This document shows, piece by piece, positions 6,981 to 21,587 of a stretch of DNA of 64,000 nucleotides. Numbering within the stretch: the first letter of the stretch is position 1; each line of letters opens with the position of its first letter. Source of the stretch: Candidatus Bathyarchaeota archaeon (GTDB lineage Archaea > Thermoproteota > Bathyarchaeia > Bathyarchaeales > Bathycorpusculaceae); the NCBI GenBank assembly GCA_026014745.1, contig JAOZHS010000001.1, forward strand, positions 1,054,001-1,118,000, read 5' to 3'. The notes beneath the pieces are model-generated. The model was not told the DNA's origin, ran no database searches, and saw nothing but the letters and a program-made list of their open reading frames with translations. The position numbers and the translations under genes are program-made.

Positions 6981-7104
6981 GGGTTTGCCGGCCAAAGGGC
7001 ACGGGTTCCACCTGATCCCATACCGAACTCAGAAGTTAAACCGTGTTCCGTTTCCAGCTGTAGTGTGGTCTTAGGCCACGTGAACCTGGGAAAGCTGGCA
7101 ACCC
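6981..7104 (+). rRNA. 5S ribosomal RNA
   Basis: About 124 bases with the 5S core: loop B/C region CCTGATCCCATACCGAACTC, then AGAAGTTAAACC, and a terminal helix formed by GGGTTTGCC (6981-6989) with GGCAACCC (7097-7104). It is isolated from other rRNA genes and has its own TATA box upstream and T-run downstream. Unlinked 5S genes are common in archaea of the TACK group. Ends are placed from the terminal helix and may be off by a few bases. Confidence 0.95.
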
Positions 7105-20731: not shown

Positions 20732-20857
20732 ATGGTAAAGTGCCCTAAATGCGGAAAGGAGCTAGATAAACCCGAGCGCTCTATCGAAAATTCAGTGTTT
20801 TGCATTGAACTCTATGTTTGCTCTAATTGTGGGCATAAGTTTAAGCGTTTTACTTAG
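20732..20857 (+). CDS. 41-residue zinc-ribbon protein
   Basis: Tiny open frame with two CxxC knuckles: CPKC at residues 4-7 and CSNC at 30-33. It is highly basic and ends KFKRFT. The four-cysteine spacing is typical of small archaeal rubredoxin-like or zinc-ribbon proteins. It starts at ATG and overlaps the opposing gene by 8 bases at their 3' ends. No function is proposed. Confidence 0.65.
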   Translation: MVKCPKCGKELDKPERSIENSVFCIELYVCSNCGHKFKRFT

Positions 20858-21104
20858 GCGTGAAGACGATTACGCCGTTTTGGTTTTCTTGTACTTCTAG
20901 GCTGTGTTTTTTGGCGATGTCTTTGACTTTTTGTTTGTCTGTTTCTTGTAGGCTGCCTGTTATGTGTAGTCTGTATCCTGACGAGTCGGTTTGGAAATTC
21001 TCAACAGAGACCGAGTCGGGCGACATTTGATTGCAAACAATTAAAAGGTCTTTTAGGTAGGTGACTGCCTCGGTTCTATTCATTCTCGGCATCCCGAGTA
21101 GCAT
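20850..21104 (-). CDS. small hypothetical protein
   Basis: An 84-residue protein with ATG starts at codons 1, 5 and 8. It has a helix, a strand-rich middle (YRLHITGSL) and a second helix followed by a VIVFTP strand, so a compact alpha/beta domain is likely. There are no motifs, no cysteine pair and no membrane segment. It overlaps the 3' end of the zinc-ribbon gene by 8 bases. The family is not recognised. Confidence 0.5.
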   Translation of the reverse strand: MLLGMPRMNRTEAVTYLKDLLIVCNQMSPDSVSVENFQTDSSGYRLHITGSLQETDKQKVKDIAKKHSLEVQENQNGVIVFTPK

Positions 21105-21321
21105 ATCTCGTTTGTTACTATATTTATGGTTTGCACTAACACGTTTGTTTAAAAATATCTATGTTGGACGTACAGTGCTATGTTTGCTTGGACGCTTATG
21201 TATCAATTTGGCTCGTTTAGGGCGTAATTTAAGCCAATTTGGCAGACAATGAGTGCTTGCCTGTCTTACTAACGGGCGTATTTTCGACTCGTTACTTGTT
21301 GTAACAGTATGCAATCACATT

Positions 21322-21333
21322 CTTTTATATTTT
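21322..21333 (+). promoter_or_regulatory. TATA box for the candidate structured RNA
   Basis: CTTTTATATTTT lies about 26 bases before 21354 and so can start the RNA just before its long closing helix. Confidence 0.5.
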
Positions 21334-21351: not shown

Positions 21352-21480
21352 AATTGGAATGCAAGGGATAGCCAACAGAGTTGAGCGAACCAGGCTGCTA
21401 ACCGACGGGGAAGGCGTCGCCCACCCTACTTCTGCGCTGCTCCGTCATTAGCGCACGGCTCGGTTCGCTTAACCAAAAAT
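21352..21480 (+). ncRNA. candidate structured non-coding RNA
   Basis: A GC-rich block inside an AT-rich 480-base gap. GTTGAGCGAACC at 21380-21391 pairs over all 12 positions (one G-U) with GGTTCGCTTAAC at 21462-21473. Inside, GCTAA (21397-21401) pairs with TTAGC (21448-21452), and GACGG (21404-21408) pairs with CCGTC (21442-21446). TGCGCT (21433-21438) could pair with AGCGCA (21450-21455) as an alternative. It does not match tRNA, 5S, SRP or RNase P RNA patterns that I know. It has no coding frame. Confidence 0.6.
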
Positions 21481-21587
21481 TTTCTCCTCAAAATCCTTCA
21501 ATCTTACAGCTTGTTTTTTTTGCTCTGTACCGCTCTAAAAATCCAGCAAGGCGCAGGCAAAAACCACCAGAAACTAGATGTTCCCGC

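Follow-up and report, generated by a model that had tools for sequence, protein, structure and literature searches.

Our comparative analysis indicates that the hairpin at positions 21,352-21,480 of the window, the whole stretch of 64,000 nucleotides of Candidatus Bathyarchaeota DNA analyzed here, is a real and previously uncatalogued small RNA gene that belongs to a multi-copy family of one Bathyarchaeia genus. The best reading of the sequence data is that this RNA represents a new family rather than a divergent form of a known RNA, and a coding leader, a riboswitch, or a known guide RNA are all disfavored. Sediments and wetlands harbor abundant Bathyarchaeia, for which our limited literature search returned no named regulatory RNA, although archaeal regulatory RNA as a general kind is already known (PMC5867862). 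Multiple RNA copies under one shared operator, together with candidate protein partners, offer a regulon that is defined and testable, and they allow the question of which protein serves small RNAs to be put directly in an archaeon.

The core of the element (21,380-21,473) folds at -44.4 kcal/mol with z = -4.03, and none of 200 shuffled sequences was equally stable; the wider stretch (21,352-21,480) gave z = -2.3. The original prediction described a 12-bp closing helix with one G-U pair and two inner helices, all of which are present, with the comparative data shifting one inner pair (U21396 with G21453) and leaving the 4-nt bulge CACG (Table 1). The apical loop contains UUUU in 51 of the 57 copies described below and CUUCU in the window copy, and TTTTT is found 4-9 nt past the helix in other copies. 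A predicted alternative hairpin, in which the 5' GCC..AC would pair with GUUGGGC, is weakly supported (p about 0.02). A pseudoknot between the 5' segment and the apical loop was rejected, its own pairings being no better than swapped ones (p 0.6).

Table 1. Features of the RNA locus and its neighboring small protein genes, in window coordinates
Feature	Position	Strand	Comparative observation
Palindromic operator GTTGTAACA-GTA-TGCAATCAC, directly upstream of BRE/TATA	21298..21318	+	
TATA box TTTTATAT	21323..21330	+	position conserved in most copies
Single-stranded 5' segment GGAAUGCAAGGGAUAGCCAAC (type 1), proposed target recognition	21356..21376	+	nearly invariant within type
Closing helix, 5' strand GUUGAGCGAACC	21380..21391	+	compensatory changes
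Inner helices, 5' strand GGC+UGCUA	21393..21400	+	U21396-G21453 becomes U-A or G-C in other copies
Variable apical helix, pyrimidine-rich loop	21404..21446	+	both-side changes in 9/9 counted pairs; 76% of cells paired
Inner helices, 3' strand UAGCG + bulge CACG + GCU	21449..21460	+	both-side changes in 5/5 middle-helix pairs
Closing helix, 3' strand GGUUCGCUUAAC	21462..21473	+	compensatory changes
T-rich 3' end CAAAAATTTTCTCCT	21474..21488	+	
77-aa protein of unclassified A7/A9 family, gene oriented divergently to the RNA gene; candidate partner that may bind the RNA	20850..21083	-	
41-aa zinc-ribbon protein (family A10), convergent with and overlapping the 77-aa gene	20732..20857	+	

A DNA search of 61 relatives returned nine candidate homologues, all from the same genus. 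One of these (G011:C45, locus L009) is probably a chance match within a reading frame; the remaining eight align across the whole element, with a conserved TATA box, a nearly invariant 5' segment (GGAAUGCAAGGGAUAGCCAAC), and compensatory changes visible in the helices. The covariance search with the proposed pairing, which had been suggested as a check, found 57 copies in 21 of the 32 genomes of the genus (1-8 per genome), and a model built from all 57 recovered the same set together with three marginal opposite-strand matches. Beyond the genus, a class-wide search of 257 genomes gave one weak match (G168, E 6.5e-4). Three pattern matches in viral contigs all failed the covariance model. A further, divergent copy escaped the genome scans; it is the third in the genome of the window (G000) and brings the family to at least 58 copies.

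In the 57-copy alignment, 88.6% of cells pair. The original prediction also proposed looking for compensatory changes in relatives, and changes on both sides of a pair were found in 201 cells, compared with 73 ± 8 in shuffles (0 of 500 as high) and 44-60 cells at one column in the slid controls. The covariation score was 0.437, against 0.249 in shuffled and at most 0.144 in slid alignments, although these covariation figures are somewhat favorable because the alignment was fitted to the model, the copies are related, and the both-side counts include inherited changes. Moving one pair to column 133 (U-G, U-A, G-C) had raised this score from 0.415. The slid controls support this same structure, as does a free fold of the first nine sequences by RNAalifold.

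The copies combine a constant 3' hairpin scaffold with a differing single-stranded 5' segment of ~20 nt. Between types, the 5' segments are 50% (types 1 and 2), 51% (types 1 and 3), and 33% (types 2 and 3) identical, compared with 69-90% for the closing helix. In type 1, conservation is higher in the 5' segment (84% mean pairwise identity) than in the closing helix (76% and 65%), whereas in the other two types it is lower in the 5' segment (62-65%) than in the helix (82-90%). The trinucleotide GCC is present in 45 of the 57 otherwise unlike segments. As indirect evidence, this pattern would fit a recognition element specific to each type. We also considered a short coding gene, since type 1 keeps six codons behind an ATG close to the inferred start (AUGCAAGGGAUAGCCAAC, MQGIAN...); this is extremely improbable, as the frames stop after 8-41 amino acids and are unconserved, the changes in the segment are non-synonymous, and the ATG is absent in G018, G010, and many other copies.

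The TATA element was correctly placed by the original prediction, with the inferred start at about 21,352-21,358, 22-28 nt downstream of the box. Before most copies we identified an operator with the consensus GTTGTNNCA-NNN-TGNNACAAC, which forms a perfect dyad and is followed by ACAT-N4-TTATAT. The operator matched at 11-14 of 14 positions in 26 of the 57 copies; among shuffles, 0.4% reached 11 positions and none went higher. Operator, TATA box, and T-run are conserved in most copies, the sequence organization of a free-standing gene. A scan of 12 genomes for the operator, with up to 3 mismatches permitted, gave 21 sites. All of them are in RNA-bearing genomes, of which 6 out of 7 have sites; the 5 genomes that lack the RNA gave none, and G010 has the RNA and zero sites. 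Known RNA copies are preceded by 16 of the 21 sites. Another site (G000:C2:194706) precedes the third hairpin of the window's genome (G000:C2:194706-194860; L272:1501-1655), a divergent copy found via the operator alone that has the same fold and scores 23 bits with RNA model R2 in a small search. We infer that the RNA genes would be co-regulated through this operator. Two further sites precede orthologous zinc-ribbon reading frames and one precedes a 41-aa-type zinc ribbon, and control by the operator may thus extend beyond the RNAs. At L282 and L274 (G022:C123:95278 and G017:C49:69141), the operator and an AT-rich box stand ahead of zinc-ribbon reading frames that are orthologous to each other (the G022 frame reads MEQTQAYKLDL...CPRCGS).

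The usual promoter is absent from L139, L140, L142, L161, and L167. The first three, all in G015, are near-identical copies with a common upstream flank, which looks like recent dispersal of a unit; L161 and L167 (G018 and G010) are orthologous-looking copies that lack the usual TATA box and operator and whose conserved upstream flank is a different one. A selfish or mobile unit that has dispersed, made up of the RNA, an ~80-aa protein, and a zinc ribbon, with no host regulatory role, would account for the G015 copies, for the copy number of 1-8 at scattered positions, and for the small proteins in up to 28 copies. We consider this quite unlikely, as no transposase or integrase was recognized among the recurrent flank proteins, the neighborhood of type 1 is kept in 7 genomes, and compensatory changes hold the stems over large divergence.

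The RNA genes are linked to genes for small proteins. Of the 57 RNA copies, 14 have a member of the ~80-aa family no more than about 600 bp away, where 0.25 would be expected from the copy number of the family; these 14 cases are partly non-independent, and six groups alone give p about 2e-7. The family is present in 21 of 21 RNA-bearing genomes and clearly in one of the 11 without the RNA (G016), with a marginal match in G027 (Fisher 2e-7 to 2e-6, the kinship of the genomes being ignored). Three quarters of the RNA copies have no ~80-aa gene nearby, and most ~80-aa genes have no nearby RNA; a search with R2 around 60 protein copies without a known RNA yielded nothing convincing (best E 0.03). 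Genes of the 41-aa zinc-ribbon family lie close to about a dozen RNA copies, and many ~80-aa genes have one in convergent orientation; the family occurs without the RNA too. In G022, the ~80-aa family reaches 28 copies and the zinc ribbon 16, mostly with no RNA nearby. Type 1 adjoins the same flavoprotein gene in 7 genomes.

Pfam and NCBIfam assigned the ~80-aa proteins to no family, and PADLOC gave no match. The structural model of the 77-aa protein has an alpha-beta-beta-alpha-beta-beta, ferredoxin-like arrangement (pLDDT 82.7), and Foldseek returned ferredoxin-like similarity only (best E 0.008) and no identification. The predicted fold is compatible with RNA binding but not diagnostic of it.

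A structured RNA adjoining a small protein in multiple copies might also point to a toxin-antitoxin module with an RNA antitoxin or RNA toxin. This is highly improbable, since only 14 of the 57 copies are paired, the genes are mostly divergent or unlinked rather than in one operon, many protein copies stand without the RNA, and we found no RNA repeats upstream of a toxin as in type III antitoxins. Alternatively, the RNA could be a decoy or scaffold that binds the linked small protein(s) and so titrates or organizes them, comparable in principle to CsrB or 6S, with the 5' segment as part of the protein site. The constant scaffold, the U-rich apical loop, the recurrent GCC, the linkage to two small proteins, and the lack of a found target fit this proposal. 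We judge it rather unlikely, because most copies are unlinked to the protein genes and because the 5' segment differs between types while the scaffold stays constant, which a single protein site would not require.

Rfam yielded no match for the window element at gathering or relaxed thresholds, and none for 14 relatives at E values up to 0.1 (Rfam 15), in line with the original view that the element is no recognizable stable RNA. This absence and the many compensatory changes support the accompanying suggestion of a new ncRNA. The same prediction offered a divergent guide RNA or a structured leader as alternatives, and neither holds up well. For a guide RNA of a known kind, there was no significant Rfam match to C/D or H/ACA snoRNAs, inspection of the sequence revealed no such box features, and the clustered flanks of the 57 loci, read by eye, contain no recognizable common nuclease of the sort that would mark an OMEGA or CRISPR guide. 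A target-guiding role for the 5' segment is possible. A cis-acting structured leader, riboswitch, or terminator of a neighboring gene would explain the T-run after the hairpin and the promoter in front, yet the next downstream gene in the window is on the opposite strand, and across the copies the downstream genes vary in kind and strand, with no co-directional gene of consistent kind. Given that the RNA gene has its own promoter and T-run, we regard a cis-acting role as very unlikely.

Searches for an exact antisense of the 5' segment revealed no recurrent orthologous target, and a scan of 14 genomes for ATCCCTTG-N-GGAGAA gave 7 sites versus 5 for the reversed pattern, no clear excess. The 5' UTR of a secreted protein is a weak candidate target in G000 (-23.8 kcal/mol) and in its 71% identical G006 orthologue (-19.1 kcal/mol); these duplexes are the first and third strongest with the type-1 segment and the best two of 30 upstream regions, and they could be due to chance. 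A seemingly perfect and conserved mRNA target in G018 and G010 (identical ATCCCTTG element, duplex -21) was rejected, as the element lies just downstream of a TATA-like box in the orthologues from other genomes and is thus probably promoter DNA. Secreted proteins of about 900 aa form a very large family, with 34 matches in G000 (e.g. C2:779604-780536) and 6-34 in relatives, and GGAG-type ribosome sites lie upstream of many members.

Based on these data, we see about an even chance that the RNAs are trans-acting regulators that work as RNPs, with the 5' segment recognizing targets. Each gene would be transcribed from its own TATA promoter, under the common palindromic operator, into an RNA of about 120-135 nt. 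In this RNA, a single-stranded 5' segment of ~20 nt would be followed by the long hairpin scaffold with its three helices and U-rich apical loop, and the 3' end would likewise be rich in U. The 5' segment, alike within a type and unlike between types, would base-pair with nucleic-acid targets, and a protein, perhaps the product of the adjacent small-protein gene, would bind the constant scaffold. Trans-action is favored by the 57 copies in the genus and their covariation, by an operator specific to RNA-bearing genomes that predicted a third, similarly folded copy, by a type-1 5' segment more conserved than the stems, by the linkage to the ~80-aa family, and by the position of type 1 beside the same flavoprotein gene in 7 genomes. 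It is weakened by the lower conservation of the 5' segment outside type 1, by the many copies without a linked ~80-aa gene, by some copies without the usual promoter, and by the lack of a convincing target. A new archaeal RNP regulatory system comprising paralogous RNAs with type-specific 5' segments on a common scaffold, one dedicated operator, a previously unknown ~80-aa alpha-beta RNA-binding family, and a 41-aa zinc ribbon, expanded in one genus, is a tentative proposal that we find possible but on balance doubtful.

Archaeal trans-acting small RNAs such as Methanosarcina mazei sRNA154 and sRNA162 are likewise intergenic genes with stable structure and conservation within a genus. sRNA154 is described as acting through its loops (PMC5867862), whereas the variable part of the RNAs described here is the 5' single strand. 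The new family further differs from the Methanosarcina RNAs, to which any sequence relation was compared by Rfam alone, in that a genome can contain up to 8 paralogues, which share an operator, and in its linkage to genes for small proteins. The bacterial sRNAs that depend on Hfq or ProQ have a 5' seed, a stable 3' hairpin, and a U-tail, the same layout as here. The present RNAs differ from them in having an archaeal promoter and, as scaffold, a single long hairpin of three helices within which most of the RNA is closed, and any chaperone of theirs is putative. With the archaeal box C/D and H/ACA guides they share small size, stability, and a guide-like segment; however, the RUGAUGA/CUGA boxes of C/D RNAs are absent from the type-1 sequence, and the internal bulge is constant, whereas the pseudouridylation pocket of H/ACA RNAs is variable. 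The combination of a scaffold and a variable segment also recalls the OMEGA guide RNAs of TnpB and IscB, and the zinc ribbon weakly resembles that of Cas12f/TnpB (E 0.006, below the cut-off). In contrast to OMEGA systems, no TnpB, IscB, or Cas gene was recognized as a recurrent neighbor of the copies, and the 5' segment, instead of being a copy of the flanking DNA, is conserved between species. We know of no exact parallel for the gene organization of this RNA family.

Across the 64-kb window, ARAGORN predicted zero tRNAs, and a lone 5S rRNA gene lies at 6984-7103 on the plus strand (Rfam RF00001, 72.5 bits).
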